In this document: one piece after another, positions 11,215 to 63,690 of the stretch
Layout: each line of letters starts with the position of its first letter
Position numbering within the stretch: the stretch's first letter is position 1
Origin: Morinoia aosen
Taxonomy: Eukaryota; Arthropoda; Malacostraca; Amphipoda; Talitridae
Assembly (NCBI GenBank): GCA_030386875.1
Contig: CM059570.1
Span: 31,611,422-31,675,421 of the forward strand
Direction: 5' to 3'
Length of the DNA stretch: 64,000 nt
The notes under the pieces: generated by a model
Database searches by the model: none
Told to the model about the DNA's origin: nothing
The model's input: only the letters and a program-made list of their open reading frames with translations
Translations under genes and position numbers: made by a program

Positions 11215-11520
11215 CGCTTTCCACGTAAGCACTATTATAGATTAATATTTTCATACTCGAGCTAATTTTTTTCAGTTCCTGTGAGCGTAAGTCTTGCGAG
11301 CGGAGACGGGCATAACAATTTCCTTTTGAACACTACTATATATTAACATTTTCATAATCCAGATAATTTTTTCTGTTCCTGCGAGTGTAGGTTTTTCGAG
11401 CAGAGACGTGTACAACAATTTCCACGTGAGCACTTCTACGTATTAACATTTTCATGCTCCAGGTAATATTTTTCAATTCCTGCGAGCGTAGGTCTTGCGA
11501 GCAGAGACGGGCGTGGCAAT
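11215..11520 (-). repeat. ~100-bp tandem triplication of the CEP104 C-terminal end
   Basis: Three units, with the shared ttcct core at 11276, 11376 and 11477 (spacing 100 and 101). The proximal unit is the real exon end. The distal unit still reads PVSARKTYAHRN then TGA; the middle one reads VSARKTYTRRN without a stop. The copies lie in the 3' UTR or downstream flank. Confidence 0.93.
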
Positions 11521-11624
11521 TTTGGTGCGGACGCTGCTGCGGCCGAGTCCGGCCGACCTGCCGTAGTCGTCCAGGTGACTTTCTTGTCCGTCAGCACCGC
11601 TCGATGCTCTGGGCCGCGGGAGAG
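11473..11624 (-). CDS. CEP104: CEP104 exon 19: basic C-terminal tail and stop codon
   Basis: Codes residues 1142-1191 and TGA. Ends RSSVRTKIATPVSARKTYAR, RN, stop, closely like the human C-terminus, where a SKIP motif (EB1-binding SxIP) precedes a similar RTYAKR end. Here the SxIP position reads TKIA (1175-1178), so the Ser and Pro are both changed. Acceptor ttgcgcag|CTCTCC. Two further diverged copies of this tail follow the stop codon. Confidence 0.94.
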
Positions 11625-14600
11625 CTGCGCAAAATTTTCAAGGTTAGAAAATAAGTATAAACAGGAAATGAATAAATCCGTACAAATACTTAAGCGAAGG
11701 GAAATGGGATGTCCGAACGAATACTTAAACAAAGGAAATTAGGATTTCCATACGAATATTTGAACTAAAAAATGGTTAAAGATAGTGATCTCGCCACTTC
11801 ATGGAAATTGTTGGACTATACATGTACAGTTGAATTTTATGGACTTGAATAGTTGGTGGTATTAACCTTATTTCATAAAATATCTTAATTACGCAATACC
11901 TTGTACATTTTCAAGAACTTTCATAGAGAGAGCTAGTAAAAAAGCAGTTTGCTTTAGCAGACAATACTCAACGGTCTTATACCTGAAAAATTGGGATATA
12001 GGCCATTATGGAATAAATGGTTTTATTATTTTTGTTATAGCAAACATATGTAGTTAGAACCAGATAAAAGGGAAGCAATGTTCTGAGTTTCTTCGGGGGG
12101 AAAAGTTACTAATATAAAAAAGGAAAAAATTGATTATGCCTGATTCAATTATATTAAAATAACTTCCTTGGATGCAAAGAAATTTATTGACGAGTTACGA
12201 ACTCGGCGTTGTGCTTAAATGGTGTCAACACCTCGATCATTTCAGTATCAACCCGAGAAATTATGAGAATGAAGTCTAAACTGCTAGATTTTTCTACTAA
12301 TCATTCATTAAAATTGTATAGTTATTCACTACATTTCACTACAATTTTATAAGTATTTACTATATTCCACTAAAATTACATAGTTATTCACTATATTTCA
12401 CTATAATTACATAATTACGAGTCTCTACGAGTATATCACGTTCAACATCGATTCATTATTTTATTCATTAGTAACTCTTGCCACCGAAGAAACTCACACA
12501 GGTAGCCATACTCAAATTTGATCATTGTATTAGACCTAAGTAATAATCTAGTTTTGTATGGCTTGTGGTGAATGAATTGTTCAACTTGTTTACATTTTTT
12601 AAATTATTCACTATATTTCTCGAGTTTGAAGCGAAGGAAACCACTCACTATGAGCACCACCCGAGGCTCCTCTCGCTTCAGTAGCCCTTCTATCCCCCCC
12701 TTGGTCGCCGTGCAAGGGCGCTGTGCCCCCATCCTGATCCGCTGAAGCTGTTCTTCTCAATTCTCCGCTGCGAGCCACGGATTCCAGTGCATGGTATCTG
12801 CCGGAGTTGACTGGAAGTCGGCCAGAGTCGTCAATGAGCCGCTCAAACTCGGCCGTGGCGCGCCCTTGCACCTCCGAATGATCACCGTAATCTATCAACC
12901 TGCGGCCATACAAGTCGCCACTGCTTCTATGGTCACTGCTGTAGTCCACTACTTTACGGCTGTGTCCGTCCATAACTCGACCATGCCCGTCTGTAACTCG
13001 ACCATGCCCGTCTGCAACTCGACCATGCCCGTCTGTAACTCGACCATGACCGTCTGTAACTCGACCATGACAGTCCGTACCTCGGCCATGACTGTCCGTA
13101 ACTCGACCATGACCGTCCGTAACTCGGCCATGACTGTCCGTAACGCGACCATGACTGTCCGTAACTCGACCATGCCCGTCCGTTACTCGACCATTCCCAT
13201 CCGTAACTCGACCGTGGTTGTCTGTAACTCGACTATGCACATCCGATACTCGATGATGGTCGACCTTGTGCGAGACCGGCTGACTTCTGGGGTTGGCGGG
13301 ACAGGAGTTGGGGCCAGGCAACAAATGGGCTCGCCAGCCTTCGTCCCAAGGTTGAACATTTTCGTGGCAGAGAGGACAGTGGTTTGCCAGAGCTGGGGGC
13401 TTAGCAGCTGTTGGAAACGTATTAGTTAATAAAATGTGAAAATTAATTTCAACGAAACATCCTAAAGAATCTAACCACAAGGACCGAGTAGCCCAGAAAA
13501 TATTAGTTAAAAATGTATCTATATTTTGATCGCCTTTTGAAAGCTTTATTCAGCGCCTAAGCTTTTTAGCTCAATTCAGCGACTGATAAAATTATCTTAG
13601 ACTCAGTGGGAATGAACTGAAGTATAGACTTATTGTATACATAAGTATCTCCTCTCTTTCACGTCTTCTCCGTTTTCTAAGATTCCCAGCGGAGCTGCTG
13701 GCCCACAATGAATTTAACGCTTTTGATTTTGAACATCGGACGTTTTGTATGAGAGTAACTCTTTATTCACCCGCCAAGGAGATAAAAAAACAAAAAAGAC
13801 ACAAAAAAGAAACCAGAAGAAGTGGGAGAAGCTATAAGTATCAGCAGAACAACAGCACTTCATTATAATTATTGTTACTATTATGTGCGGCGTTCCACCA
13901 CCAAACAGCAGAACTCGACCGAGAACTACGCTCGAGCTGCCCTGATCAGGAAGCGAGTGATTGTGGACAATAAGACCAAAGAAATGTACATGGATGTTCT
14001 GGTGAAGGCATCTGAAGATTGTTGGAAAGGTTTTCGTTTGCTCACCAGTGGATGTTTTTTGAACAATCGTAGTACTCTTTAATCGAAACAAAGCACTTTG
14101 AGCCAACGTAAAAGCTCCAACCTCTGAAGTAAAATTTGAAACATCAAATAATATTATACTCAGAGCATGTACCCCTCACTTATTCTTTCTCTTTGACAGT
14201 TAAGACCTCAATAGAAATTTGAAACATCAAATAATGTTTTACTCAAAGCATGTAGGTACTCCTCACCTATTCTTTCTCTTTGACTGTTAAGACCTCAATA
14301 GAAAGCTACAGCTGGGATTCTGGAGGTAGCAAACGACATCTTATTAAAACAGAGATTCTTCGATAATTAAATTTAAGAATTTACTGTGAACTATTAGTAG
14401 AATCATACTTAAATTTCCCATTTGATGATGATTAACTTAACTCATCGGACATAATTTTAGAACACTTTTTCTTCCTTTCAAGAAGTTTATTTTTACTCAC
14501 CAAACATTTTTCTGTGAAATCAAATTTCTGAATTAAAGTCAGCAAGCATTTTAAGAAGCGCAGGATGCCTCACGCTCGGAGAATTTCAGGCACATCTCAT

Positions 14601-17600
14601 GGTGGTAGTATTTTCACTTCTATAAGTTTTTGCTCTACAGCATTTACGATTCCATAAAGAAATATACCGAAAAAGAATTTGTTCAGGAACGTCTGAAAGT
14701 GCTAATATCTATGTTCCTAAAATATTTCGCTCAACAACATTAATTTTATAGATTTCTCACGGAAAAAAGTTTGTCCTGATATGCCAGGGAGCTCATGCCT
14801 TCATTTCTAGAATAATTCTCTCTACAGCATTAAAGATGCCTCACGTGAAAAACATGCACATCTCAAAGAGCTCATGCCCTCGTTCCCAGAATATTTCCCT
14901 CAACAGAATAAAAGATTTTTCACGTGAAAAACATGTACGGAAAAGACGTACATCTCTTAAAGCTCATGCCTTCATTCTTAGAATATTTCTCCCTACGGCA
15001 TTAAAGATTCCTCACATTAAAGATGTGTATGGACAAGACATATACATTTCATAGAGCCCATGCGCTCATCCTCAGAATATTTCTCTCTACAACATTAAAT
15101 ATTCATCACGGAAGAGAGTTTGTTCAGGTACGTCTCAGGGAGCTCATGTCTCCATACCTGGAACAATTAGCTCTGCAGCATTAAAGATCCCATGCGGAAA
15201 ACTCTCGAAAAAGAGTTAGATCAAGTATGTTTCCGGGAGCTCATGCCTTCATTTCTAGAAATTTTCGCCCTACAGCATTGAAGATTTCTCACAAAAAAGA
15301 GTTGAAGGGTCGTGCCGTACCTGTACAAGCCAGGCTCGACGTGTGGCTCCTCCACTCCTTCCGGTGGACGGCCTCGGTGCAGCGCTCGCACCGTCGGTAG
15401 TCTCCGCACTCGTCGCAGTCGTCTGAGTTACATTAGAATATAAGTTAGCTTAAAGCGTTGACTGCGAGGGGTTAAACTCAAATTCAATATTACACACTCA
15501 TCGCAGTCGTCTAGATTAGATTACATTAGATTATAAGTTAGTGTATACGCGTAGACTGTGAGGGGTTAAACTCAAATTCAATATTCTAAATTCACCGCAG
15601 TCGTCTGGGTTATATTAAATTATCAGTTAAATAATACTTGTTGACTGCGATGAATTAAACTGAAGATCAATTTTCAATTCAAATTTAAAGTTAATCGTAG
15701 TTAGCAATTTTGAAAATAGGGAATATTAACGGGATCGTTCCTTCATTTAGCTTCCATTAAGTATTTATAAAAATTGAGTTAGTGAATGCAGATTGGTCAG
15801 CAGCATTGTGAAGATCCCCTCAACTTCTGGTAATGAGCCTCCTCGAATTGGAAATCGATATGACGTACTTGGTAGATGTAAGAATGAATGTTCACTGACT
15901 TCTTTCGTAGCTATATTGTCCCTCTATTTATTTCCCGTGACTTCTATTTATGTAAAGTAACTTCTTTCCTGCAGCCCAACTGTTCACATATCGCAGAGTT
16001 AGGGACGAAGATTCGTAGGCTCGGCACAGGATAGAGACTCACCAACAAGATGCTGAGATAACGAAGCAATTTCGACGACCTGCTTGCAGTGGGAGCAGCG
16101 TGTGAGCAGGGGACAACTGCGCCAGTAGTGCAGATCGAGGCCTGCTCCCAGCAGCGAGTCGTCGCTCAAGCCACAGAAGATACAAGTCCTGCCCCCCAAA
16201 AAGTTCAATCTCAGAGAATAGAACGTTGAAAAAAGTTCAATCTCAGAGGATGGAACGTTGAAAAAAGTTCAATCTCAGAGGATGGAACGTTGAAAAAAGT
16301 TCAATCTCAGAAGATAGAACGTTGAAAAAAGTTCAATCTCAGAAGATAGAACGTTGACGTAGTTATAGATTAACATGTTCCCCCCGCGTATTGGGGCATA
16401 TGTCTACTAGTAGGTAAATGACTTATTCACCTACCGATATATTTGAATTACATTTCATTTCTTTCGCTACTTTTTTAAAAATAACTGCTGTCACACGCAG
16501 TGAAATTTTATCGTGCAATTCTCAACTTGATATTTCTTGAAAGTATAAAAATGTCTTCGAGCATTAAGTCGGTTTCCCATATCAACTACTTAGAACCTAA
16601 GAAAACCAGCCTTTAACAACTGCGAAAAAACGATGAGCGTGTTGAAGGGCGGAAATGTAAAAATTGAGGCACATTTAAAAAATTAATTGCCAGGATAAGC
16701 CCACCAGTACTGACAACGTTTATAAAGACTGAATGTAAACATTTACATGAGCTAGATGACAAAGTTGCCCGGTAGAAAGCAAGTCAAGATGTACTAAAAT
16801 AACCACTAAACCGAAGCTGAACAAGCGTAGGATATACAATGTAGCTTAACACGTTACCTGTGACGGGTTAAACTAAAGTTCAGTATTCAACTCCAATTAG
16901 AATTATTTTCAAAGATCTATTTTGAAAACAAACAACATTACGTAGATCGTGCCTTCATTTAGTTTTCGTTAAGTATTTATGAAAATTGAGTTTGTGTCTG
17001 CTGGTTGGTCAGCAGCAATTTGAAAACCCCCACTGTGACCACCGGTGGGTCCCTTCGTAGGAAACGCGTCAAGTGACTCAACACACTAATATTACCCTAT
17101 ATATCGTAAATTAGTGGGAATTATATTACTTCTCTTCTTCCATGTCAAGTGACGCTGGTGTGAGAGGGGAAGCTTGGGATCCTGGTGAGGGGGTGAGGGG
17201 GGAGGGCTGCCCCAGTGTCTGCATCTCGTCTTCGTCTTCTCGCAGATCCTGAGGGTTGGGAAATTTGCTTAGCCTGTGAGATAATAACGCATCTGATTTA
17301 GCCATAGGCCTCTCCCCATACATGACCCATGCTCGAGTTCCAGAATATTCATTTGCCAACAAAATTTAAACAAAATATCGCTAAACGCAGCCGTTACACA
17401 AAGTTTTGTGTCATGATTTTTTATTTTTGTTCATATTATTCGCACTATAAAAAGCCGAATCCACATTTTTTCATTCACGCCATGTTGACGCAATCCAACG
17501 CGGCATTACGAGTGGAATTGTGAATATATCTTAAACAGAAACTTAGTTTCTGATAATGAATACTGAATTACGTATATAGTTTTTCTTTTCAAACCTCCCT

Positions 17601-22987: not shown

Positions 22988-23050
<63 letters not shown>

Positions 23051-56000: not shown

Positions 56001-59000
56001 TAAATCTTTCATAAAACTTCGGCAGTGATTAGAGAAAGTTGCAATCTTACATAAATCTTACATAAAACTACGGCAGTGATTAGAGAAAGTTGCAATCTTA
56101 CATAAATCTTACATAAAACTACGGCAGTGATTAGAGAAAGTTGCAATCTTACATAAATCTTACATAAAACTACGGCAGTGATTAGAGAAAGTTGCAATCT
56201 TACATAAATCTTACATAAAACTACGGCAGTGATTAGAGAAAGTTGCAATCTTACATAAATCTTTCATAAAACTACGGCGGTGATTAGAGAAAGTTGCAAT
56301 CCTACATAAATCTTTCATAAAACTACTGCAGTGATTAAAGAAAGGTAATCGAAAGGTTGGGGTAATTTTGGGTGATGAAGAGAAATAAAAATCTTGTGTA
56401 TAATTTAAGGGTTGTGTTACCTTATTTTAGCAGCAATTTTTGGATGAAAGTACCCAGGGAGCAATTGAGAAAAATTAGAAATCTTGTTTACAATTTAGGC
56501 GTTATACTAACTGTTTTGAAAACGATTTTTGAATAAAAAAACTCAAGTAGCGATTTAGGAAAATGAAAATTTTCGGTATGATTCTTGCTTTGCATTACCC
56601 ATTTTTGGAGCCATTTTTTGGATTGAGAAAAAAACTGAACGAACAATTTCTGAAACAAAAGCCTTACGTACAATTTTCGCATGGCATCACCTTTTTTGGC
56701 AGCGATTCTTTTGAGGGAGAGCTGCTGCAGGACGGCGGTGACTTCGGTGTCGACGTACATGGAGAAGGCGAGGTCGTGGTGGGGGGGGAAGTCATGTCCC
56801 CCGTCCCCCTCCCCCTCCACCCGCCGCACGGAGGGCACCCGCCCCCCCGCCCCGTCGGGGGACACGCTGTTGTTGTTGTCTTCCACTTCGTTGCCTAGCA
56901 CGTTGACCGCCACCAGCGCCACCTGCCGTACAGCGTACGTCTCAACACTCACAGACATGACTTGTCTATACATGACATACGGCCGTATGATGCACGTGTT
57001 AACACTCACATACATTGCTTGTCTACACATGACGTACGGCCGAGTCAGCACCACTCTTATACATGACTTGTTTGCGCATAACATAAGGCTACGTTCCGCA
57101 CGTGGTAAGTACTAGCACCATTCCTACGCCACGTGAATTGTCTACACATGACGTAAAGATATATGCTCCGCGTGATACATGTTAACATCTTTCTTACACC
57201 ATATGAGTTGTCTACCCATCACATACGGCACACCAAGCGATTTGTCTGTTTGTAAGATATGCCACACTCGTACGCGTTAATGCCGCTCCTATGCTACGTA
57301 ATTTATGTACACAACACGCGGAAGTAATTTTGTTTTTAACAACAGTCCCGCGCTGTTACATAGCCAGTCAACTTTGACGTCCTTTAATAACCCTGTTTGC
57401 TATTATTTAGCATTAATACCATTAATTATCCTAACTATTAATAAATAGTTAAGAACTAAAATAGCATTAACAATAACATTTAAATGCGTGCTCTAGTGTA
57501 GTTTTAATTCATCTTATTACCACCTTGCTTGGGGGAGCCGATTGTTGACGGAAATTTTGCACTGGCGGTGCAACTTTAGCTTGATACCTGAAATTCAGCT
57601 ATATACAGTTCCAACGAGTTTTGTCAACATTTCCTTCAGCAAGATGGAAACGCCCTAGCAAGGTGGCGACATTGAAGACGCCCAGCAAGCACCTGACTTA
57701 ATGTACCGAAACATAAAATTAGTGTTTTTCATAAGCTTGAATGGGTCTATCACACAACAAAGCACATGCATTTTGTTCCTCTTGAATCAAACTCAGGTCC
57801 TGTAGCTGTAATTTGCGGTGGTCACAGTGGCTAGTTGTAAATTGCACTCGCTTTTCGTGTGAAATGATCGAGGGTTCGTAAACCTGTAGCAAGAGCCTGG
57901 TATTTGAATCGTACGGCGCACAAATCTTGATAACGCCAGATTAGATTATCAGTTTGTTCAAGGCTCCCTAACCGCTTGAAATGTGTTCCTAAGAAAGGAA
58001 AGAAGGAGGCACTGTTAAAGATGAAATGAAGAAAACGGGGAGTCTATACACAAGTGTGTTCACTAACAGGATTCCTTGCGAATAACAGCAAAACTGGAAG
58101 AAGTTATGAATCTACGTGAGAGTTGAAGAAAGAAATGAAAAGGTGCTAAAAAAAGATCAGCAGCGACCGGAAAAAATGGTCCTTAACAAAGCAAAGAAAC
58201 CTATTGTATTTGAACAAAAGGAAGGCCTATCAAACATTTAGCTCGGGAAACGTCCCATAACAAAGACCGCCACGATCTCACCCGTATTGTTCCCTTATGC
58301 TGCGCTTGAAAGCACCAAAATAGAAAGAAAATAGAAAATAAATTGTTCGCTATTCAGTGCGTCCCACGAATATGCGTCCCTCATAGAGCAAAACTTCTCT
58401 GCATGAGAAATGAGAACAAATTACTTAAACAAAGGAATTACATGCACTTTTGAAAAACGCAAACTGATAGATTTATTGTTCATATTATTTTACGAAAAAA
58501 TTTAATCCCATTTTACAAATTGCTATTCGGTAGCTTTAACATAAATTTGAACGAGATGTGTTCGATTGTTTTTGGAACACAATAGAGATGTTAAATTGAA
58601 AATAAACCCTATATCTTCACCTGGCAATCACGTCGTCAAACTAGAGACTGGAGCGAAAAATACGGCATGAACGACGTCAAACTTCAAGCAGGGCAATGAA
58701 AAACACACAAACGACCTCTAACTTGGAAAGGATGTATCGCAACTGAAGTGAAAGTCACTGGATAGATATTTACTGGATATTCACAGTCTGGAATTCTTTA
58801 CTGACTAGATATTTAGGGTCAGTGAATAAAAAGTTGTCCATTTGTTCATAACTTGAACCAAGGATTATATTAGTAGGCTAATTTAGACTGATGTTCAACG
58901 TCATAAAAGGAGATTCGCAGTTGATGATGATGTATAATTCGAATAGCTTCTGCATTATTACACAATTTTCCCATGTATTGACACAATATTTGGTTCAAGG

Positions 59001-62000
59001 CTCTACAGCCACAACGAACGCAACCTCAAATGAGTGAAGAAAAGGGAACTACTTAGTAACGATAGTAGAAAACGGGCACTATTGGCACGAGGTGTATTTC
59101 CTCAAATGAAACTCAGTACGTAGAAGCAGCAAGCTAGGTACGAAGAGGAAGAACATACAAACAAGAGATAGCAAAAAACAAAGAAACTGAAATAAATAAA
59201 GTGAGCACGAAAAACAGAAGTCTCTAAGGCCTATCTATAGCTGAGGATACCTAAAAGTATTCCCCTGGGAGTGCAAGTCCCGAGGCATAGAATAAACAAA
59301 ACTTACTAACCTAAGCCTACTGGCTATCCTGTACTTCCTGAGGGCATACATTTTTCCATATAAAGGCCAACAGCGTCGTAGTGTCGTACAAAAGGATCTC
59401 CTTTCAGCTCTCAAAGCAGTTTCTGAGTGCTTTCTCAATCGACTAAGTTATCTTTGTTGATGAAAAGTTTTAGTCCATCTGACATATTTTCCTGGTATTT
59501 GGCTTATGAAAGAGATTTACGTAAAGTCGGTCTACCAGCACTCGCCTTAAACTAAGACCTTCTTGCCACGATCTCAGCGCAATACCCTTAATTTATTCGT
59601 ACATAGTTTTGTACTTGAGAAAATCGAAGGTAAAGTTACCTGATGAGATCATATTACATCTTGAAATTCTTTTTCGTCGAACCTGGATCGCACATCGTCG
59701 CACATCGAACCCTCTCTATTGTACTCTCATACATTCACACACTCCGTTGTACTCTCATCCATTCACACACTCGAGTGTACCGTCATCCATTCACAAACTC
59801 CATTGCACTCTCATCCATACACATACTCGAGTGTACTGTCATCCATTGGCACACTTCATTGTACTCTCATCCATTCACACACTCGATTTTTTATACTTTC
59901 ATCCATTCACAGAAAATGATGTGGTACGATGTTCATTCTTAAGAGAGTAACGTACCTGATTAAATTTATTGAGTTTGTTGACGTAGTTTCTATAGAGAAG
60001 GATCTTGAGGAAAGTACCCGTACAGTCAACATTGACACTTTTGAGCTCCCTGGCTTTGTGCAGCGTGTGGCTGTTGCTGGAGAGATTGATGTATCCCAGG
60101 GCAGTGAACTGCGCCGTCTGGAGGCTTAGGTCTTCCTCAGGGGGGCAGTCGCCGATCAGCAGTTGAATACGTTCGGCTGTAAGGTCAAAGTATATAGTGA
60201 AAAAATGCTCTCAAATGAATGGATTGTGGTGTTTAATTTGAACATAGAGTAGAAGGCAGCAAGAGATCAAGGCATCGTGTGAAATAGGTACACTGAAATG
60301 AATGGATCGTGGTGCCTTATTTAAGTATAGAGAAAAAGGCAGGAAAAGTCAAAGTATCGCTGGAAATAGAAACGCTCAAATGAATGGATCGTGGTGCCTT
60401 ATTTAAGTATAGAGAAAAAGGCAGGAAAAGTCAAAGTATCGCTGGAAATAGAAACGCTCAAATGAATGGATCGTGGTGCCTTATTTAAGTATAGAGAAAA
60501 AGGCAGGAAAAGTCAAAGTATCGCTGGAAATAGAAACGCTCAAATGAATGGATCGTGGCGCCTTATAGAGAAAAAGTCAAGAAAATTAAAGTATCCTGTA
60601 AAATAGATACGATCAAATGAATTGATTTTGACGCCTAATTTTATTATTGAAGAGAATAAAGTCACCTCGAAATCACGCAAGATTGATGGGAAAAAAGAAA
60701 TCAAATGCTGGGCCTAATTTAACGCTTGAGTAGAAAAGTCACGACGTAAAAAAGACCCACTCAAATGCGTGATTTGCCACGCCTAATATAAAAATAAAGC
60801 CGACAAAGTAAATGGTAAAGCCATATGTCATTTTTCCATCCTAATTTACTTGAAAATGAGCGAAATTTTACGGTATGAATTAACAGAAAACATCATCTAT
60901 AATATACAACAATACAGGAAAAATTCCCCATTCTTACGAATGAAAATTTCAAGATTGAGGCTGCCCACACGAAGCTTGTGTCCTCTCATAATTTTTACCC
61001 GAGAACAAACATTGAGGAGCCAAAAATTCGAGCGAACAGAAACAGAACCTTCTGATGTAGGCATTTAAGACACCACCCAGAAAACACCCACGGATGCAGA
61101 CATCCTCACACCCCTCAAATAATACCCACGGATGCAGGCATCTAAGATACCACCCACACAACACCCACGGATGCAGGCATCTTAGACCCAAACAAAAGAG
61201 GAACCACGGATGTAGGCATGTATGACCCAAACAAAAGAGGACCCACGGATGCAAGCATCTAAGACCCAAACAAAACAGAACCCAAGGATGCAGGCATCCT
61301 CACGCATCCAGAAGCCACCACCCGGACAACAGACACGGATGTAAGCCCTCACGCATCCAACAAACCACCACCCGGACAACAGACACGGATGTAAGCCCTC
61401 ACGCATCCAACAAACCACCACCCGCACAACACACTCGGATGTAAGCCCTCACGCATCCAACAAGCCACCACACGCACATCACACACGGATGTCGGCATCC
61501 TCACGCATCCAACCAGCCACCAGCCGCACAACACACACGGATGTAAGCCCTCACGCATCCAACAAGCCACCACCCGCACATCACACACGGATGTAAGCCC
61601 TCACGCATCCAACCAGCCACCAGCCGCACAACACACACGGATGTAAGCCCTCACGCATCCAACAAGCCCCCACCCGCACATCACACACGGATGTATGCAT
61701 CCTCACGCATCCAACCAGCCACTAGCCGCACAACACACACGGATGTAAGCCCTCACGCATCCAACAAGCCACCACCCGCACATCACACACGGATGTATGC
61801 ATCCTCACGCATCCAACCAGCCACCAGCCGCACAACACACACGGATGTAAGTCCTCACGCATCCAACAAGCCCCCACCCGCACATCACACACGGATGTAT
61901 GCATCCTCACGCATCCAACCAGCCACCAGCCGCACAACACACACGGATGTAAGTCCTCACGCATCCAACAAGCCCCCACCCGCACATCACACACGGATGT

Positions 62001-62760
62001 ATGCATCCTCACGCATCCAACCAGCCACCAGCCGCACAACACACACGGATGTAAGCCCTCACGCATCCAACAAGCCCCCACCCGCACATCACACACGGAT
62101 GTATGCATCCTCACGCATCCAACCAGCCACCAGCCGCACAACACACACGGATGTAAGTCCTCACGCATCCAACAAGCCACCACCCGCACATCACACACGG
62201 ATGTAGGCAGCCTCACGCATCCAACCAGCCACCAGTCGCACAACACACACGGATGTAAGTCCTCACGCATCCAACAAGCCACCACCCGCACATCACACAC
62301 GGATGTAGGCATCCTCACGCATCCAACCAGCCACCAGCCGCACAACACACACGGATGTAAGCCCTCACGCGTCCAACAAGCCACCACCCGCACATCACAC
62401 ACGGATGTCGGCATCCTCACGCATCCAACCAGCCACCAGCCGCCCAACACACACGGATGTATGTCCTCACGCATCCAACAAGCCACCACCCGCACACCAC
62501 CCACAGATGCAGGCATCATCACGCATCCACCAAGCCACCACCCGCACAACACCCACAGATGCAGGCATTTAAGGTACCACCCGCACAACACCCACGGATG
62601 TATGCCTGGTGGGCCAGTATCTGGACCCGAGAGAGGTGGCAGCGCTGGCGGAGTCGCAGCACGAGCTCCTGAGGGTAGATGGAGAACCTGGCCGAGCACC
62701 AGCCCCGCGCGCCCGGCCCCTGCAGCAGCAGCTCCTGCGCCTTGCTGGCCGCGTCCTCAC
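11473..62760 (-). CDS. CEP104: CEP104-like centrosome/cilium-tip protein; 18 joined exons, 5' end incomplete
   Basis: Spliced gene joined from 18 exons: 62760-62596, 60176-59956, 56922-56691, 52023-51812, 48668-48301, 31346-31232, 28637-28528, 27858-27739, 26346-26209, 24658-24518, 22698-22485, 21424-21312, 19070-18920, 17248-17130, 16188-16043, 15422-15321, 13407-12649 and 11624-11473. The frame stays open over 3578 bases: two bases of a split codon, 1191 codons, then TGA. CEP104 family features seen: jelly-roll-type N-terminus, coiled coil, proline-rich linker ending YDERTLPAL, TOG domain, zinc fingers with CIFCG, LTRCSHCKQVVEI and CPLCHEN, and a tail ending ARKTYARRN. Known CEP104 proteins sit at the distal centriole and ciliary tip, bind tubulin through TOG, and contact EB1 and CP110; that role is inferred here by homology. 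Human CEP104 is about 925 residues; the excess lies mainly in linkers and exon 18. The start codon is not in the joined model. Exons 13-14 are the least certain part. Confidence 0.93.
11625..12648 (-). other. CEP104 intron 18, no further feature
   Basis: AT-rich. A short run of ttcactatatttcactaca-like repeats lies at about 12325-12415. Nothing else recognised. Confidence 0.7.
12649..13407 (-). CDS. CEP104: CEP104 exon 18: last zinc finger plus expanded heptad-repeat tail
   Basis: Codes residues 889-1141 plus one base. Begins AAKPPALANHCPLCHEN, the strongly conserved last CEP104 finger; candidate ligands are C899, C902, H916 and C924. Then follows a tail about 200 residues longer than expected, with about 13 copies of a 7-residue GRVTDGH-type repeat (21-bp units) and a Ser/Gly/Arg/Asp-rich end. 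Acceptor tttccaacag|CTGCTA. The open frame runs on to a stop at 12611, but the strong donor CTCATA|gtgagt at 12649 joins in phase to exon 19. Confidence 0.92.
12965..13236 (-). repeat. 21-bp coding minisatellite in exon 18
   Basis: About 13 tandem 21-bp units with substitutions only and no indels, so frame is kept. Each encodes a GRVTDGH-like heptad. The antisense strand is also open, because 21 is a multiple of 3. Confidence 0.95.
13408..14559 (-). other. CEP104 intron 17, 5'-distal half
   Basis: No gene recognised. A direct duplication of about 85 bp is seen at 14134-14303 (gaaacatcaaataat ... ttctttctctttgac ... gacctcaatagaaa in both copies). Confidence 0.65.
14560..15320 (-). repeat. 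degenerate ~120-bp repeats anchored at the exon 17 donor
   Basis: About six diverged units, each with agctcatgccttcat-like and gcattaaagat-like blocks (plus strand). The unit nearest the exon starts at the real donor gtacgg; the next unit has gtacctgaacaaactc at the same place, matching gtacgg...ttcaactc. Confidence 0.8.
15321..15422 (-). CDS. CEP104: CEP104 exon 17: second zinc-finger module
   Basis: Codes residues 855-888 plus one base. CDECGDYRRCERCTEAVHRK and EWRSHTSSLACT match the family C-x5-CxRC-EA...E...H...C pattern. Candidate ligands: C857, C860, C866, C869, H881, C887. Acceptor taactcag|ACGACT, donor TGTACAG|gtacgg, phase 1. Copies of this acceptor are tandemly repeated upstream (15423-15660). 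Confidence 0.95.
15423..15660 (-). repeat. ~90-bp repeats carrying copies of the exon 17 acceptor
   Basis: The exon 17 edge (minus strand ag|ACGACTGCG) recurs twice: ctag|ACGACTGCGATGAG with the copy starting at 15510, and cccag|ACGACTGCGG at about 15604. Spacing 88-94 bp. Each copy holds an AG and 9-15 bases of exon-like sequence. Confidence 0.9.
15640..15850 (+). mobile_element. TTAA-type MITE, copy 1 (diverged)
   Basis: Shares ttgactgcg at its start, then aaattcaa, ccttcatttag, ttaagtatttat, aaaattgagtt and ggtcagcagca in the same order as the copy at 30910. Right end is not well defined. Confidence 0.65.
16043..16188 (-). CDS. CEP104: CEP104 exon 16: first zinc-finger module
   Basis: Codes residues 806-854 plus one base. 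TCIFCG, GLDLHYWRSCPLLTRCSHCK and QVVEIASLSQHL reproduce the CEP104 zinc-finger signature. Candidate zinc ligands are C808, C811, H826, C831, C837, C840 and H852. Acceptor ggggggcag|GACTTG, donor CTTGTTG|gtgagt, phase 1. Confidence 0.97.
16199..16365 (-). repeat. 32-bp minisatellite at the exon 16 acceptor
   Basis: Five units of gttcaatctcagaggatgga plus acgttgaaaaaa. The array begins within about 12 bases of the acceptor, so the pyrimidine-tract region upstream of exon 16 is itself the first unit. Confidence 0.93.
16846..17081 (+). mobile_element. TTAA-type MITE, copy 2
   Basis: Begins ttaacacgttacctgtgacg and ends gtcaagtgactcaa; internal blocks (ccttcatttagtttt, ttaagtatttatgaaaattg, ggtcagcagca, ccccactgtgacca) match the other copies. 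Same orientation as 30910. Confidence 0.8.
17130..17248 (-). CDS. CEP104: CEP104 exon 15: acidic/Ser-Pro linker before zinc fingers
   Basis: Codes residues 767-805 plus two bases: DLREDEDEMQTLGQ, then a Ser/Pro/Thr-rich piece, then SLDMEEEK. Acceptor aaccctcag|GATCTG. The reading frame runs into TAA unless it is spliced at GAGAA|gtaata; the remaining AA plus the first G of exon 16 makes Lys and leads straight into TCIFCG. Confidence 0.85.
17249..18019 (-). other. CEP104 intron 14 sequence, nothing recognised
   Basis: AT-rich, no coding signal, repeat or RNA gene recognised. Confidence 0.6.
18020..18360 (+). repeat. dispersed repeat family B, copy 1
   Basis: Shares with 49020-49345 and 57945-58260 the ordered blocks gcctccc, gaggaaagaagaaggcac, aacagtaagct, aagaaagaagttcatgaaac, acagcagtgaac, aaaaagatggtcctta and ctcagctcggg. 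No ORF, no clear terminal repeats. Class unknown. Partial copies lie near 24995-25090, 52740-52900 and 59040-59220. Confidence 0.8.
18430..18919 (-). repeat. degenerate ~125-bp repeats anchored at the exon 14 donor
   Basis: About four units with shared gagcaaat..cgaagagagaac, cagtaaaaac, aaagcgctt and cgaccagc blocks. The exon-proximal unit starts at the real donor CTAAG|gtgcga; other units have CTAAGtgctttc or CTAAAgcgcttt in that position. Confidence 0.78.
18920..19070 (-). CDS. CEP104: CEP104 exon 14: CAG-rich linker (frame provisional)
   Basis: Codes residues 716-766 as a Ser/Gly/Asn-rich segment ending QVPHISVTPDGG...INSSK in the phase-consistent frame. Acceptor gctccacag|CGGCGG, donor TCTAAG|gtgcga, phase 0. 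In another frame the CAG run reads QQQQQQLRQQLQREQQQQRR, a coiled-coil-like stretch of the kind human CEP104 has here, but that frame meets a TGA before the donor; it would need the internal donor CAG|gtgccc and different neighbours. Confidence 0.6.
19082..20345 (-). repeat. 53-bp minisatellite abutting the exon 14 acceptor
   Basis: Unit ttctggcgttagcgtgaatt / tgcttattttctcattgttg / ctattgcacaaca. About 16 regular 53-bp units, then three longer (~92-bp) composite units next to the exon. The acceptor region reads GCCAGAATTTTGTGCtccacag, against GCCAGAATGTTGTGCaatag in the units, so the acceptor lies in a modified unit. Confidence 0.95.
20346..21311 (-). other. CEP104 intron 13, non-repeat part
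   Basis: AT-rich, no coding signal or RNA gene recognised between the exon 13 donor and the 53-bp array. Confidence 0.65.
21312..21424 (-). CDS. CEP104: CEP104 exon 13: variable linker (frame provisional)
   Basis: Codes residues 679-715 plus two bases in the only frame that both follows exon 12 (phase 0) and avoids a stop when joined to exon 14. Product is low-complexity (ATTPRGRTATVSGG...). Acceptor gtgagcag|AGAGCC, donor GCCTG|gtgagg. A second open frame (PPQSQEGSVNSGRAEP) looks equally natural but would need an extra exon to fit the phases. Confidence 0.6.
21436..21835 (-). repeat. 30-bp minisatellite upstream of exon 13
   Basis: About 13 units of gagcagaccacagatacgaa plus tacagacgat. 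Array starts about 12 bases from the exon 13 acceptor. All frames stay open because 30 is a multiple of 3, creating false ORFs on both strands. Confidence 0.95.
21836..22484 (-). other. CEP104 intron 12, non-repeat part
   Basis: No gene recognised; short ggaatcctt-type repeats at about 22200-22330. Confidence 0.6.
22485..22698 (-). CDS. CEP104: CEP104 exon 12: last TOG HEAT repeat
   Basis: Codes residues 607-678. GFTARQLAEFGLSAVQHPGS and ARKNVLFRNLFEQLDLIDA match the family GFT...FxxxAxxH / RxNxLFxxLFxxFxxIDG pattern closely. Acceptor tctgtgcag|AGGCTT, donor GCCAAG|gtgaca, phase 0. Confidence 0.96.
22702..22985 (-). repeat. ~19-bp minisatellite at the exon 12 acceptor
   Basis: About 14 units like gtgtgtgggtacaatacaa. 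The first unit lies a few bases from the acceptor ctgtgcag. Confidence 0.9.
22992..23047 (+). repeat. (GT)n microsatellite
   Basis: Uninterrupted run of about 28 gt dinucleotides continuing the neighbouring gt-rich minisatellite. Confidence 0.98.
23393..23525. repeat. degenerate ~20-bp repeats
   Basis: Six to seven diverged units of the form attgtcatcaggggac (for example acaattgccatcaggggact). Intronic. Confidence 0.75.
23526..24179 (-). other. CEP104 intron 11, no further feature
   Basis: No coding signal recognised. The open frame on the plus strand at 23881-24189 has no recognisable domain. Confidence 0.55.
24180..24517 (-). repeat. ~165-bp degenerate repeats anchored at the exon 11 donor
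   Basis: Two full and one partial diverged unit sharing attaaattac, caaacgctt, gatgtcaaagttctgg and gtggc.catgct blocks. The real donor context tctcgctatgactgac (plus strand) recurs as tctcgcaatgactgac at about 24352-24367. Confidence 0.82.
24518..24658 (-). CDS. CEP104: CEP104 exon 11: TOG domain, less conserved
   Basis: Codes residues 560-606 plus two bases. GSIGAELSKPISHTVHPRSA aligns by position with the CEP104 segment ahead of the GFT motif, but identity is low. Support comes mainly from phase: acceptor gttgcag|AGGGTG and donor GACAC|gtcagt give a 1+138+2 exon that joins exons 10 and 12 exactly, and length is near that expected. Internal AGs could be alternative acceptors (ccaatcag|CCACAC, gctgtgcag|AGCCAA), also in frame. 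Confidence 0.75.
24670..24920 (-). repeat. degenerate ~60-bp repeats upstream of exon 11
   Basis: Four to five diverged units containing tcattatcacagtgacg and tcgtgcgcttag / tcgtgcgctaag. Array begins next to the exon 11 acceptor. Confidence 0.78.
25380..25607 (-). mobile_element. TTAA-type MITE, copy 3
   Basis: Reverse orientation to 30910. Left end gtaacactttgacagcg, right end cgcagttaacgcgttaa; inner blocks gacctgcagccac, ctcaattttcat and aaatgaaggg shared with 40168. Confidence 0.82.
25915..26208 (-). repeat. degenerate repeats of the exon 10 3' edge
   Basis: Three diverged copies of the exon/intron border. One (26040-26140) keeps gggtgagcatctcagtgagg, against ggtgagcatctcagtgatgg in the real exon, and a gt at the position of the donor (tacgtgagttgcc against aag|gtaagaggcc on the minus strand). 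Confidence 0.82.
26209..26346 (-). CDS. CEP104: CEP104 exon 10: TOG domain
   Basis: Codes residues 514-559 plus two bases. LDQVLPDLLSKTADNAVRTQ then AVATITEMLTF matches a TOG HEAT repeat (xxxIPxLLxRxGDxxxRxR...A). Acceptor cgtccccag|AGTGTC, donor ACAAG|gtaaga, phase 2. Degenerate copies of this exon's 3' edge lie in the following intron. Confidence 0.94.
26347..27104 (-). other. CEP104 intron 9 part, nothing recognised
   Basis: AT-rich sequence with no coding or repeat signal seen. Confidence 0.6.
27105..27170. repeat. 14-bp short tandem repeat
   Basis: Five units of gtgagcatcctagg. Intronic. The gtgagcatc core resembles exon 10's 3' region (ggtgagcatctcag). Confidence 0.9.
27500..27690 (-). 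repeat. ~90-bp direct duplication downstream of exon 9
   Basis: Two diverged units sharing caatgg.acgatg.aaaa, tttattgta / ttttactgta and tatcaact / aaatcaact blocks. Confidence 0.7.
27739..27858 (-). CDS. CEP104: CEP104 exon 9: TOG domain
   Basis: Codes residues 474-513 plus two bases. LSRAAVFLIQKGVRDKVFSV and AQLACATLSLLLSHFF match CEP104's LRASVFLVRRAIKDKV helix pair. Acceptor gtgtgcag|GTTGTC, donor AATAG|gtcaga, phase 2. Confidence 0.95.
27940..28140 (-). mobile_element. tRNA-derived SINE
   Basis: Minus strand begins gcggtcaccgtggtcaagtg; an A-box-like tggtcaagtgg is followed about 50 bases on by a B-box-like cagttcaaatccc, then a non-tRNA body and a short AT-rich 3' part. Length about 200 bp fits a SINE; the head does not fold as a full tRNA gene with a normal end. 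It lies in intron 8. Confidence 0.8.
28260..28527 (-). repeat. minisatellite built from the exon 8 donor
   Basis: Units of 16 or 32 bp: cgtatctctacgtgcacgta and tctcaacttgaa. The intron starts AG|gcaagtggagatacgtgcac, and array units read ttcaagttgagatacgtgca on the minus strand, so the donor segment is the repeating unit. About 15 short units. Confidence 0.92.
28528..28637 (-). CDS. CEP104: CEP104 exon 8: TOG helix, GC donor
   Basis: Codes residues 438-473 plus two bases. VDRFYSKNYSDKEAGLLLLQ matches the CEP104 stretch Y-K-W-Y-R-E-A-L-L at the first TOG HEAT repeat. Acceptor follows a CA/TG-rich tract, gtgtgcag|GTGGAC. The only GT near the end (CAA|gtgg) gives the wrong phase; using AG|gcaagt, the classic GC-AG donor consensus, restores the frame into exon 9. 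Confidence 0.88.
28638..28710 (-). repeat. duplication of the exon 8 acceptor within a CA-rich tract
   Basis: The acceptor gtgtgcag|GTGGACCG recurs about 40 bases upstream as tggcag|GTGGACTG, with the same CA/TG tract and acaatga end. Confidence 0.85.
29035..29955. repeat. 25-bp minisatellite with 100-bp higher-order unit
   Basis: Monomer taattccttgtctttactga plus about 5 bases. Four monomer types (ending tgaat, cgaat, ttaat, ctgaaa) recur in fixed order every 100 bp: taattccttgcctt starts at 29181, 29281, 29381, 29481 and 29581. Lies in intron 7. Confidence 0.96.
29956..30909 (-). other. CEP104 intron 7 part, nothing recognised
   Basis: AT-rich, no coding or RNA signal seen. Confidence 0.6.
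30910..31140 (+). mobile_element. TTAA-type MITE, copy 4 (best-preserved ends)
   Basis: 231 bp with perfect 16-bp inverted ends: ttaacactttgactgc at 30910-30925 and gcagtcaaagtgttaa at 31125-31140. TTAA at both tips suggests a piggyBac-type target site; the class is inference, and no transposase is present. Confidence 0.88.
31232..31346 (-). CDS. CEP104: CEP104 exon 7: entry to TOG domain
   Basis: Codes residues 399-437. Reads MTEAERKDAALPILVFGAPM, equivalent to the LTEKxLREAxxAIxVFG helix opening the CEP104 TOG domain. Acceptor cccccacag|CCGTGT, donor CCCATG|gtgggt, phase 0. Confidence 0.93.
31415..31615. repeat. short degenerate repeats upstream of exon 7
   Basis: Three to four diverged copies of gaggtctaccacactatagc-like sequence, ending in a short ttaggttaggtta run. 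Confidence 0.7.
31616..34870 (-). other. CEP104 intron 6, 3' part: no feature seen
   Basis: AT-rich, with an (aaaat) run at about 32255. Small open frames on both strands lack recognisable domains and splice context. Confidence 0.55.
34871..34975. mobile_element. small foldback element, copy 1
   Basis: Ends gagcctagctttttcaccgg and gcaaaagtaaaactgag, related to the ends at 45207 and 51098. About 105 bp. Confidence 0.65.
35708..35992. mobile_element. ~285-bp inverted-repeat element
   Basis: Imperfect inverted ends of about 30 bp: cacagtagaggaaacagggt on the left and, on the opposite strand, cacggtagaggaaaaaaggt on the right. No coding capacity; probably a non-autonomous DNA element. Confidence 0.65.
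35993..36989 (-). other. CEP104 intron 6, nothing recognised
   Basis: AT-rich; short actaaaggacgatacac repeat near 36545-36600. Otherwise nothing seen. Confidence 0.55.
36990..37222 (-). mobile_element. TTAA-type MITE, copy 5 (diverged)
   Basis: Reverse orientation: attgaccgcaacg, ccaccggtgg, gaccgaccggcagtcac, then ttgaatttgagttgaatatt and tgaacttgttgtaccc, in the same order as 40168. Confidence 0.7.
37223..38104 (-). other. CEP104 intron 6, nothing recognised
   Basis: No gene or repeat recognised before the 37-bp array. Confidence 0.55.
38105..39728. repeat. 37-bp minisatellite, about 43 units
   Basis: Unit ctacagcagttcagctgcag plus atgtacactgccccacc. The first five units are a variant with ctgtgcagctgcagatgtgc. 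The unit has no stop in any plus-strand frame, and 37 is not a multiple of 3, so all three frames stay open for hundreds of codons; these are not genes. Confidence 0.97.
39729..40167 (-). other. CEP104 intron 6, nothing recognised
   Basis: AT-rich spacer between the 37-bp array and the next MITE. Confidence 0.55.
40168..40395 (-). mobile_element. TTAA-type MITE, copy 6
   Basis: Reverse orientation; ttaactcattgtctgcgacc at the left, cgcagttaaagtgttaa at the right, 228 bp. Inner blocks gaccgacctgcagtcac and ttaaatttgagttgaata are shared with other copies. Confidence 0.85.
40396..45206 (-). other. CEP104 intron 6, long AT-rich stretch
   Basis: No supported gene apart from the weak cassette-exon candidate at 44552-44602. 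No RNA gene or array recognised. Confidence 0.5.
44552..44602 (-). CDS. candidate cassette exon inside intron 6
   Basis: A 51-base GC-rich island: acceptor-like aataaag|ATTACTG and a strong donor GCCTG|gtgagt. If inserted between exons 6 and 7 it keeps frame (1+48+2 bases) and reads LLRAKIFRLKHHCTAA. I see no counterpart in CEP104, the pyrimidine tract is weak, and frame fit has a one-in-three chance of being accidental. Confidence 0.22.
45207..45315. mobile_element. small foldback element, copy 2
   Basis: Ends ccagtctaactttatcgccg and ctaaaaagttaggctgg form inverted repeats; 109 bp. Confidence 0.75.
45930..46335. repeat. degenerate ~58-bp repeats
   Basis: Six to seven diverged units sharing atggactcagaaaggaacag and acatcagtggtgcctac blocks. 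Intronic. Confidence 0.85.
46868..47090. mobile_element. 223-bp foldback element
   Basis: Arms of about 88 bp (46868-46955 and 47003-47090) are nearly perfect inverted repeats, from aattataaataaaa at the tips to cgtttcgacc at the loop; the loop is about 47 bp. A foldback or MITE; its transcript would form a long hairpin within the CEP104 pre-mRNA. Confidence 0.9.
47091..48079 (-). other. CEP104 intron 6, 5' part
   Basis: AT-rich; a (aaat) run at 47775-47815. Nothing else recognised. Confidence 0.55.
48080..48275 (-). repeat. ~37-bp repeats just downstream of exon 6
   Basis: Five units like acgatccaatcgatggggct plus acctcattgtttt. Array ends about 25 bases inside intron 6. Confidence 0.88.
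48301..48668 (-). CDS. CEP104: CEP104 exon 6: proline-rich linker
   Basis: Codes residues 277-398 plus two bases. Mostly Pro, Ser and Thr (for example PPPSPPRPYSPPPPVPKKTP), probably disordered. The 3' end reads SYDERTLPALK, equivalent to the family YDERPLPAI motif just before the TOG region, which anchors the assignment. Acceptor cccgcag|AGACTG, donor AAACA|gtgagt, phase 2. A 17-kb intron follows. Confidence 0.92.
49020..49345 (+). repeat. dispersed repeat family B, copy 2
   Basis: Same block order as 18020-18360: gtttaagccttcc, aacagtaagttgagaaagaa, caagacagcaatgaaccgaa, aaggaaggcc, tctcgggacc. No ORF. Confidence 0.8.
49346..50109 (-). other. CEP104 intron 5 sequence
   Basis: Contains diverged short repeats around 49650-49800 (gatacaagtctcgtatctca-like). 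A tagggtgtcccgaaaac stretch near 49578 resembles a DNA-transposon end. No gene seen. Confidence 0.5.
50110..50480. repeat. degenerate short tandem repeats
   Basis: Many copies of cggatactatttggagatac with variable spacing (about 22-45 bp), some as tatatactattgt. Confidence 0.85.
50481..51097 (-). other. CEP104 intron 5 sequence
   Basis: Contains a diverged duplication around 50830-50990 (gagtcatgaagtttttgttc / gagtgactcgtaaagttttt). Nothing coding. Confidence 0.5.
51098..51205. mobile_element. small foldback element, copy 3
   Basis: Inverted ends cccagtctaactttttcgcc and ggcgaaaaaggtaaactggg; 108 bp with an inner second inverted repeat around gcatgcat. Confidence 0.85.
51310..51598. repeat. 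19-bp minisatellite
   Basis: About 15 near-identical units of gattcgacgtacttaaaaa. Its homogeneity suggests recent expansion. About 215 bases inside intron 5 from the exon 5 donor. Confidence 0.97.
51812..52023 (-). CDS. CEP104: CEP104 exon 5: central coiled coil
   Basis: Codes residues 206-276. The sequence is a charged helix, for example LEYARRLQRAAELLKTAGER followed by LGKFEIEKRLAL and DFDKAKRKSQLI, matching CEP104's coiled coil with its paired YDYAKKLK / DYDLAKEKK repeats. Acceptor gacccag|ACGACAG; donor AAAGGG|gtgagt, phase 0. Confidence 0.96.
52024..55498 (-). other. CEP104 intron 4, mostly unrecognised
   Basis: AT-rich, with a partial family B copy at about 52740-52900. No supported gene or RNA. 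Confidence 0.55.
55499..56340 (-). repeat. 51-bp minisatellite in intron 4
   Basis: About 16 units: actacggcggtgattagaga / aagttgcaatcttacataaa / tcttacataaa. Stop-free in one minus-strand frame because 51 is a multiple of 3. Confidence 0.96.
56345..56690 (-). repeat. ~92-bp degenerate copies of the exon 4 donor region
   Basis: The exon end GCTGCCAAAAAAG|gtgatg recurs as GCTGCTAAAATAAG|gtaaca (about 56422), and as GGCTCCAAAAATGG|gtaatg (56598); a weaker copy TTTTCAAAACA|gttagt lies near 56504. Each copy has about 25 bases of exon-like sequence upstream of a gt. Confidence 0.87.
56691..56922 (-). CDS. CEP104: CEP104 exon 4: end of N-terminal domain and acidic/proline loop
   Basis: Codes residues 129-205 plus one base. 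Starts VALVAVNVLGNE, the strand that follows FNQ in CEP104, then a low-complexity loop rich in Asp, Asn, Gly and Pro, then HDLAFSMYVDTEVTAVLQQL, matching the family DLAFDMY-D-EV helix. Acceptor tacggcag|GTGGCG, donor AAAAAAG|gtgatg, phase 1 at the end. Confidence 0.95.
56923..57330 (-). repeat. degenerate repeats at the exon 4 acceptor
   Basis: Five to six diverged units of about 65-75 bp with ttgtctacacatgacgtacg and gttaacactcacatac blocks, beginning right at the acceptor. Confidence 0.78.
57331..57944 (-). other. CEP104 intron 3 part, nothing recognised
   Basis: No coding, RNA or repeat signal recognised. Confidence 0.55.
57945..58260 (+). repeat. dispersed repeat family B, copy 3
   Basis: Blocks caaggctccctaaccgc, ggaaagaaggaggcact, aaaaatggtccttaacaaag, aaaaggaaggcctatc and agctcggga, in the same order as the other copies. 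No ORF. Confidence 0.8.
58261..59714 (-). other. CEP104 intron 3 part
   Basis: AT-rich; a partial family B-like segment near 59040-59220. No gene seen. Confidence 0.55.
59715..59915 (-). repeat. ~28-bp minisatellite near the exon 3 donor
   Basis: Seven units like actctcatccattcacacac plus tcgagtgt, ending about 35 bases from the donor. Confidence 0.93.
59956..60176 (-). CDS. CEP104: CEP104 exon 3: N-terminal domain, ARELKSV motif
   Basis: Codes residues 55-128. Contains FTALGYINLSSN and KARELKSVNVDCTGTFLKI, then YVNKLNKFNQ; the ARELKSV-VD-G-FLK pattern is the most conserved stretch of the CEP104 N-terminal domain. Acceptor ccttacag|CCGAAC, donor AATCAG|gtacgt. The split proline codon (C|CC) joins exon 2 in frame; exon ends in phase 0. 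Confidence 0.95.
60177..60640 (-). repeat. ~85-bp minisatellite abutting the exon 3 acceptor
   Basis: Five units with gaatggatcgtggtgcctta, aagtatagagaaaaaggcag and aaagtcaaagtatcgctgga. The acceptor context (aaggtcaaagtatatagtg on the plus strand) is the first, diverged unit; the middle units are nearly identical. Confidence 0.92.
60641..61074 (-). other. CEP104 intron 2, non-repeat part
   Basis: AT-rich; may hold further decayed units of the 85-bp repeat. Nothing else seen. Confidence 0.55.
61075..62595 (-). repeat. 51-bp (102-bp dimer) minisatellite built from the exon 2 donor
   Basis: About 30 monomers in alternating A/B pairs; ggatgtatgc recurs 102 bp apart (61689, 61791). Type A units hold GCATACATCCgtgtgtgatg on the minus strand, a copy of the real border GCATACATCC|gtgggtgttg, followed by the same tgcggg. 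The array touches the donor. Confidence 0.95.
62596..62760 (-). CDS. CEP104: CEP104 exon 2: start of N-terminal jelly-roll-type domain
   Basis: Codes residues 1-54 plus one base. Typical family run GWCSARFSIYPQELVLRLRQ followed by VQILAHQAYI, as in the N-terminal domain of CEP104. Acceptor is tgtgcag|GTGAGG and donor is CATCC|gtgggtg; ends in phase 1. Very GC-rich compared with the flanking introns. The donor abuts a tandem array whose units repeat the exon end (see 61075-62595). Confidence 0.9.
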
Positions 62761-62804: not shown

Positions 62805-63690
62805 TGATGGACTTTTTTGAAATGTTGGACTTGACAATAAGTTAAAAATGTTGGACTACAATGTTAGATTTGTTGTTGAAAATGTTGGACTGCAATGTAA
62901 GACTTGTAGTTGAAAATGTTGGACTACAATGTTAGATTTGTTGTTGAAAATGTTGGACTGCAATGTAAGACTTGTAGTTGAAAATGTTGGACTACAATAT
63001 TAGATTTTTTGTTGAAAATGTTGGACTGCAATGTAAGACTTGTTGAAAATGTTGGACTACAATGTTAGATTTGTTGTTGAAAATGTTGGACTGCAATGTA
63101 AGACTTGTTGAAAATGTTGGACTGCAATGTTAGACTTGTTGTTAGAAATGTTAGGCGTGACAATAAGTTCAAAATGTTGGACTGCAATGTTAGATTTGTT
63201 GTTGAAAATGTTGGACTGCAATGTAAGACTTGATGTTGAAAATGTTGGACTACAATGTTAGATTTGTTGTTGAAAATGTTGGACTGCAATGTAAGACTTG
63301 ATGTTGAAAATGTTGGACTACAATGTTAGATTTGTTGTTGAAAATGTTGGACTGCAATGTTAGACTTGTTGTTAGAAATGTTTGGCTTGACAATAAGTTC
63401 AAAGTGTTGGACTACAATGTTTGACTTACTGTTGAAAATGTTGGGCTACAATTTTAGACTTACTGTTGAAAATGTTGGACTTAAGTATAAGGTAAAAATG
63501 TTGGACTTAACACTAAGTTAAAAATATTGAACCACAATCTTAAACTTGTTGTTAGAAATGTTGGACTTGACAATAAGTTAAAAATGTTGGAATACAATGT
63601 TAGCTTTACGGTTGAAAATGTTATACTTAACACTTAGTCAAAAATGTCGGACTGCAATATTAGACTTTTAGTTAAAAATGCTGGAACATG
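62805..63690 (-). repeat. 34-bp minisatellite in intron 1
   Basis: About 25 units of gttggactgcaatgtaagac plus ttgtagttgaaaat, decaying towards the right. Many units read ttacattgcag|TCC on the minus strand, an acceptor-like motif. Confidence 0.93.

Follow-up and report, generated by a model that had tools for sequence, protein, structure and literature searches.

Does tandem duplication start preferentially at exon borders, or are its products found there for other reasons? The question is raised by a gene in the window (the whole stretch of 64 kb, from one haplotype, that was analyzed), for which the original prediction held that tandem arrays are repeatedly seeded at splice sites and carry copies of them. 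Pfam domains, PDB chains and a splice model identify this gene as CEP104, on the minus strand. Built from splice signals and reading phase, the model has 17 exons with phases that agree at every junction and a single open frame of 1134 codons (1159 if the alternative E14 donor is used). It runs from E2 (62760-62596) to E19 (11624-11473), which ends in a stop at 11473, and its ends are exactly those of the span 11473..62760 first assigned to the gene. Pfam matches to CEP104_N (E 5.8e-44) and CEP104_ZnF (E 1.2e-36) cover 120/120 and 112/112 profile positions with no net indel, and the match to CEP104-like_TOG (E 2e-47), a domain spanning E8, E10, and E11, places 214 residues on 208 (net +6). Two PDB CEP104 sequences match the TOG region of the model, and N-terminal identity to human CEP104 is approximately 40–44%.

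E1 was sought within the 64-kb window and not found. A GC-rich candidate for E13 (21306-21440), with splice-like ends and lying beside a 30-nt x 13 array, had no fitting phase and was omitted; it is possibly exon 13 or an isoform exon. The phase-consistent donor of E8 at 28528 is of the GC type (GAG/GCAAGT). E14 has two phase-compatible donors, with the exon ending at 18995 or 18920, and the donor was shifted from the former to the latter only after a repeat copy had been noticed. The introns are ∼26% repeat, and their CpG o/e is 0.86 with arrays and 0.92 without. The latter ratio and the low identity to human CEP104 are weak hints that the host is not a slow-evolving chordate. Searches with Rfam (gathering score), with ARAGORN, and, for eight ORFs outside the exons, with Pfam gave no matches and so no clue to a taxon or a transposon.

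The original prediction knew of no named system that produces such repeats, but those that span boundaries correspond to the “mirages” of amphioxus. As described in the available parts of two accounts, mirages are minisatellite-like tandem duplications across exon–intron boundaries, at donors and acceptors, in Adh3, TnC, and the globins BflGb6 and BflGb9, and repeats in PGBD5 are likened to them. Their units measure 10–160 nt, and many, not all, copies keep GT or AG. In the globins the edge units are excluded from homogenization, and the PGBD5 repeats abut the 5′ splice site. Lancelet mirages are reported to have no effect on splicing, are also characterized by length polymorphism or somatic instability, and occur in these accounts in cephalochordates only (PMC3087553, PMC3902484).

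The coding region and the arrays considered here are listed below, with the means by which each was found where recorded.

11473..62760, minus strand: CEP104 coding region, E2 to E19 (Pfam, PDB, phase-consistent splice model)
61035..62607, minus strand: mirage at the E2 donor, mostly 50-52 nt units, each with ...GCATACATCC/GTG..., 10-12 nt of the exon side copied (probes, by eye, self-comparison)
60210..60650, minus strand: array near the E3 acceptor, 82 nt, 33 nt from the exon, probe not above background (TRF, tract comparison)
56937..57042, minus strand: degenerate 57-nt tract, 14 nt from the E4 acceptor, absent from the original prediction, probe not above background
56400..56720, minus strand: degenerate copies of the E4 exon end and donor (probes; missed by TRF; limits by eye)
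28626..28718, minus strand: mirage at the E8 acceptor, units of about 42 nt with CAG/GTGGAC (probes, by eye)
28254..28527, minus strand: array at the E8 donor, 16/32/48 nt, from intron +1/+2, intron side only (TRF, probes)
25938..26239, minus strand: mirage at the E10 donor, degenerate units of 80-90 nt that include the donor and as much as 31 nt of the exon end, GT kept in one of two copies (by eye)
24667..24908, minus strand: degenerate tract, 8 nt from the E11 acceptor, absent from the original prediction, probe not above background
24210..24517, minus strand: array at the E11 donor, 147 nt x 2, from intron +1 exactly, copy 2 keeping GTCAGT, zero exon bases (TRF, probes)
22711..23048, minus strand: array beside the E12 acceptor, 19 nt plus adjoining (GT)29, edge 12 nt from the exon (TRF, probes)
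19078..20342, minus strand: array beside the E14 acceptor, units of 93 and 53 nt, 7 nt between edge and exon (TRF, probes)
18459..18933, minus strand: array at the E14 donor, 99-nt units, its edge 7 nt away from the donor at 18920 (the downstream one), with 14 nt of the exon aligned (TRF, probes; donor picked after the repeat was seen)
16198..16357, minus strand: array beside the E16 acceptor, five units of 32 nt, 9 nt between edge and exon (TRF, probes)
15407..15681, minus strand: mirage at the E17 acceptor, units of about 94 nt that include AG and the first 16 nt of the exon, AG kept in both upstream copies (TRF, probes)
12966..13237, minus strand: 21 nt x 13 array within coding exon E18, in frame, a seven-residue repeat that may vary in length (TRF, splice model)
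11218..11512, minus strand: E19 end and stop codon, 100 nt units x 2.9 into the 3′ flank, 40 exon nt inside the array (TRF, probes)

For the 33 borders, which comprise 16 donors, 16 acceptors, and the stop end, we compared a 60-nt probe spanning the border with the adjacent 800 nt and with 54–95 segments from other introns. Border similarity exceeded every background segment at 11 of the 32 splice borders (donors of E2, E4, E8, E10, E11, and E14; acceptors of E8, E14, E16, E17 and, narrowly, E12) and at the stop-codon end of E19; the remaining 21 did not rise above background. At the E12 acceptor the score was 14 against a background maximum of 13, and the E4 donor scored 22 against 14 (24 against 22 with a shorter probe). 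Of the 13 borders originally listed, 11 were thus confirmed (85–95 backgrounds each). The two exceptions are the E17 donor (0.6 SD), where a repeat tract begins 18 nt into the intron, and the E3 acceptor (0.3 SD), where a shorter probe gave a 12/13 match that was equalled in one of 41 backgrounds. With shorter probes the E10 acceptor and E12 donor (exon probes) and the E18 acceptor (span probe) also narrowly exceeded all their backgrounds, a result that the 60-nt probes did not reproduce, and these borders were not counted.

What is copied differs between borders, seven of which, together with the stop end, were additionally inspected by eye. Exon bases are included at the E2 donor (12 nt), E8 acceptor (12), E10 donor (31), and E17 acceptor (16) and, more weakly, at the E4 and E14 donors. 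At the E8 and E11 donors the intron side alone is copied, and the arrays at the E12, E14, and E16 acceptors end 7–12 nt before the exon; a nominal 23 aligned exon nt at the E16 acceptor was rejected as an exon copy because the array there stops short of the exon. The earlier claim that splice-site copies are left behind and introns enlarged is supported. The claim of separate events also held: the TRF arrays lying at borders or close to them, 13 in all, are unrelated. With three initial units per array aligned, the best pair scored only 6 points above the highest of 20 shuffles (the E4 donor, E8 acceptor, and E10 donor have no TRF entry and are outside this comparison).

By structure, the CEP104 arrays are of the mirage type, with the structural features that could be compared present at four borders. 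Units span the boundary at the E2 and E10 donors and the E8 and E17 acceptors, so that both boundary types are hit, and do so more weakly at the E4 and E14 donors; they measure about 16–147 nt, and many, not all, copies keep GT or AG. In contrast to mirages, there is no boundary-spanning at the E8 and E11 donors or at the three acceptors where the arrays stop short, and neither intron-side-only arrays nor arrays ending just before acceptors belong to mirages as described in the parts of the accounts at hand. There, the globins and PGBD5 have one or two affected borders per gene, whereas in CEP104 about one-third of borders and the stop end are affected. The copying of exon edges is thus real and unusual, but of a kind already described in lancelets, and compared with the cases in the available accounts CEP104 is unusually dense in mirage-type borders. 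Internal tandem repeats in human segmental duplications alter gene structure and, as far as the source available to us goes, resemble CEP104 in that minisatellite expansion changes the gene; that work concerns the divergence of human paralogues and, to the same extent, makes no mention of seeding at exon edges. Open-literature searches for CEP104 with minisatellite, tandem repeat, or intron returned no CEP104 paper among the matches listed, and searches for duplicated splice sites and related phrases found no paper.

The E2 array holds 28 registers, the authentic donor and 27 copies, with GT in 27/28 (26/27 spares). Against the donor consensus, 25/28, including the real one, score 5/9, and 24/27 spares equal the real donor. 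Identity between unit i and unit i+2 is 0.62 at the exon, 0.94–1.00 inside, and 0.86–0.88 at the far end, the first unit being shorter (39 nt) than the others (about 50). Interior units of the same parity reach 0.97, and the first three units against the interior 0.77 (mixed parities, short first unit, this array only). As in the globin mirages, the edge units lie outside homogenization. Splicing at the first spare E2 donor would lengthen the exon in frame by 39 nt with no stop, but for each of the next three copies tested the extension contains stops. The spare acceptor of E8 would add 42 nt (14 codons), in frame and with no stop, and both E17 spare acceptors retain AG but add stops in every frame. 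At the E10 donor and the E8 acceptor, one copy keeps the dinucleotide and one has lost it (by eye). The absence of net indels in CEP104_N and ZnF would favor use of the exon-proximal E2 and E17 sites in a model that itself chose exon-proximal sites.

Whether repeats are enriched at exon edges depends on what is counted. By bases there is no enrichment: 14/77 border windows were repeated, as were 1226/4725 intronic and 33/275 exon-interior windows, counting any copy within 260 nt, copies within the exon included. A probe score of 19 was reached at 11/33 borders and by 385/1500 random intronic 60-mers (copy on one side), whereas exon-interior 60-mers had a copy in the adjacent intron in none of 297 probe–flank comparisons (probes ≥ 31 nt from edges, which only exons longer than about 120 nt provide). 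Thus, borders act like intron DNA. The original proposal tied duplication to spliced sites, but the stop end has no splice site and is nevertheless triplicated: the last 40 bases of E19, stop codon included, sit in the 100-nt array of 2.9 copies, with 27/30 exon bases matching. The habit is therefore not splice-specific. A third kind of survivor is the 21-nt array in E18, whose 13 units lie in a single open frame from 13549 to 12614. Such survivors are what would be left by a filter in which a duplication persists if splicing, a stop codon, or an intact reading frame renders it harmless.

Counted by events, enrichment is modest and depends on the null. The first E14 donor (18995) was used for naive placement, the shorter probes, the TRF-collapsed nulls, base coverage, the edge-crossing count, and the E2-unit and intron-birth tests; the second (18920) was used for the 60-nt probes and the stratified self-comparison of 46 tracts (the counts of 12/46 and 15/46, and the KS test). 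A naive TRF placement null gave 10/32 arrays within 36 nt, the stop-end array included, against 0.87 expected, an about tenfold excess that we set aside because this null forbids edge-crossing and ignores array expansion. When TRF arrays were collapsed to one unit and crossing was allowed, 9/31 lay within 36 nt against 2.2 expected (P = 1.8e-4); stratification by intron raised the expectation to 3.65 (P = 0.005). For distances of up to 10 nt, the stratified null predicted 2.6 arrays and 5 were seen (P = 0.11).

In a TRF-independent, stratified self-comparison, 12/46 tracts lay no more than 14 nt from an edge, where 4.3 were expected (P = 3.7e-4, about threefold), and 15/46 within 36 nt against 5.5 (P = 5.9e-5), the latter including a contact at the E18 donor that is a 16-nt match at offset 220 and probably due to chance. 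The distance cut-offs were set after the distances were known; a KS test, which has none, gave P = 3e-4. With the first E14 donor, the counts were 14/46 tracts up to 36 nt from an edge (5.5 expected, P = 2.6e-4) and 9/46 up to 10 nt (4.1 expected, P = 0.013). All these P values are uncorrected for the original choice of this pattern in one gene. An earlier tract analysis, in which windows were merged across short exons, overstated contacts (e.g. at the E14 and E17 donors; 15/42 within 10 nt) and is superseded. Tracts crossing an edge or lying no more than 5 nt from one numbered 6/46 against 3.8 (P = 0.17), indicating that the excess is mostly just inside the intron and not in edge-crossing itself. 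The expectation that array edges lie closer to splice sites than random positions holds in this gene to a modest degree for events and fails for bases.

We consider it probable that the arrays are mirage-type minisatellites whose edge-crossing copies are tolerated as splicing or the stop hides them, with a modest edge bias in addition. In favor of this are the border copies, the absence of exon-interior copies from introns, the near-expected number of edge-crossing tracts, the triplicated stop end, the in-frame array of E18, the divergent first unit of the E2 array, the full-length CEP104_N and ZnF matches, and the undisturbed splicing reported for the lancelet cases. In a minisatellite-rich genome, short tandem duplications with units of about 20–150 nt would arise often, presumably by slippage or break repair, and those in coding sequence would be eliminated unless they kept the frame. 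Duplications crossing an edge would be tolerated where the exon-proximal splice site, or at the gene end the first of the stop codons, remains in use, as mRNA and protein would then be unchanged. Surplus copies, being presumably neutral, would go on to expand and homogenize like ordinary intronic repeats, and the unit touching the exon would be held by function and diverge from the others. The net +6 residues in the TOG domain and the coverage of a single gene count against this explanation. With GT in nearly all spare E2 donors and most scoring like the real one, neutrality to splicing is also not obvious. Nor does the filter alone, from which 4.3 tracts are expected within 14 nt, account for the 12 seen: something favors edges, and beyond the filter a roughly threefold array excess close to them remains.

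That excess would be accounted for by a mutational bias that starts tandem duplication at exon edges (e.g. through R-loops, polymerase pausing, or the change in composition between exon and intron), which is compatible with the tolerance explanation and to which we give somewhat less than an even chance. It is supported by the two- to threefold excess of arrays within 14–50 nt of edges, with arrays collapsed and introns stratified, and by a sharp GC step between exons (61%) and introns (39%). Against it, 31/46 tracts lie > 36 nt from any edge, crossing arrays alone show no significant excess, border base coverage does not exceed that of introns, and the stop-codon end behaves likewise without splicing. 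In a broader view, which we regard as doubtful, tandem duplication in the host (perhaps not a lancelet) would generally start at exon edges, through a mutational process acting at the border of any conserved block, stop codons included; if so, new arrays would continually lengthen introns and leave genes with spare splice sites by the dozen. Selection on the spare sites as buffers or alternative sites would agree with the near-complete retention of GT at E2 and with the open, in-frame extensions from the first E2 and the E8 spares, but retention is also expected from recent homogenization, and given the stops behind the next three E2 copies and both E17 copies, as well as the dinucleotides lost at E10 and E8, a functional role seems unlikely.

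Tandem duplication across a boundary is also a known route of intron gain, described in potato under the Rogers model (PMC4974935) and, in the parts of the literature available, also proposed for mirages. The likeness is that a boundary-crossing duplication supplies spare splice signals. There, however, the new intron is spliced out, and the CEP104 introns show no sign of such an origin, in which the intron would lie between copies of a duplicated exon segment. When each exon end was paired with its own intron end, and each intron start with its own next exon start, mean scores were 10.2 and 9.3, against 9.9 and 9.7 for mismatched pairs, and the TRF border arrays are unrelated even at the two ends of one intron. 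It is thus very improbable that the arrays are remnants of intron birth. Tandem arrays are prone to misassembly, but an assembly or chance artefact is hardly credible where copies have diverged, the TRF border arrays have unrelated units, and the coding frame is intact over 17 exons. Moreover, block-shuffled sequence at half the scan density yielded 0–2 tracts against 38–46 in the real sequence.

As far as the accounts at hand go, mirages have been noted in a handful of lancelet genes, and CEP104 with a fair null turns that anecdote into a countable rate. The gene is also well suited to the question of how exon-proximal sites prevail over dozens of decoys with equal scores, and to that of whether exon edges mutate differently. 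Arrays are not confined to borders in the window. The largest TRF array, a 61-nt unit x 93.5 at 2921-8623 (5.7 kb, 96% matches), lies outside the gene model, and a dense 34-nt array (62841-63685) starts about 80 nt upstream of the E2 acceptor and was not counted because that intron is incomplete in the model. The 17-kb E6–E7 intron (31347-48300) contains six TRF arrays, including one of 37 nt x 44 at 38111-39730, and per base its arrays are sparser than in most short introns.
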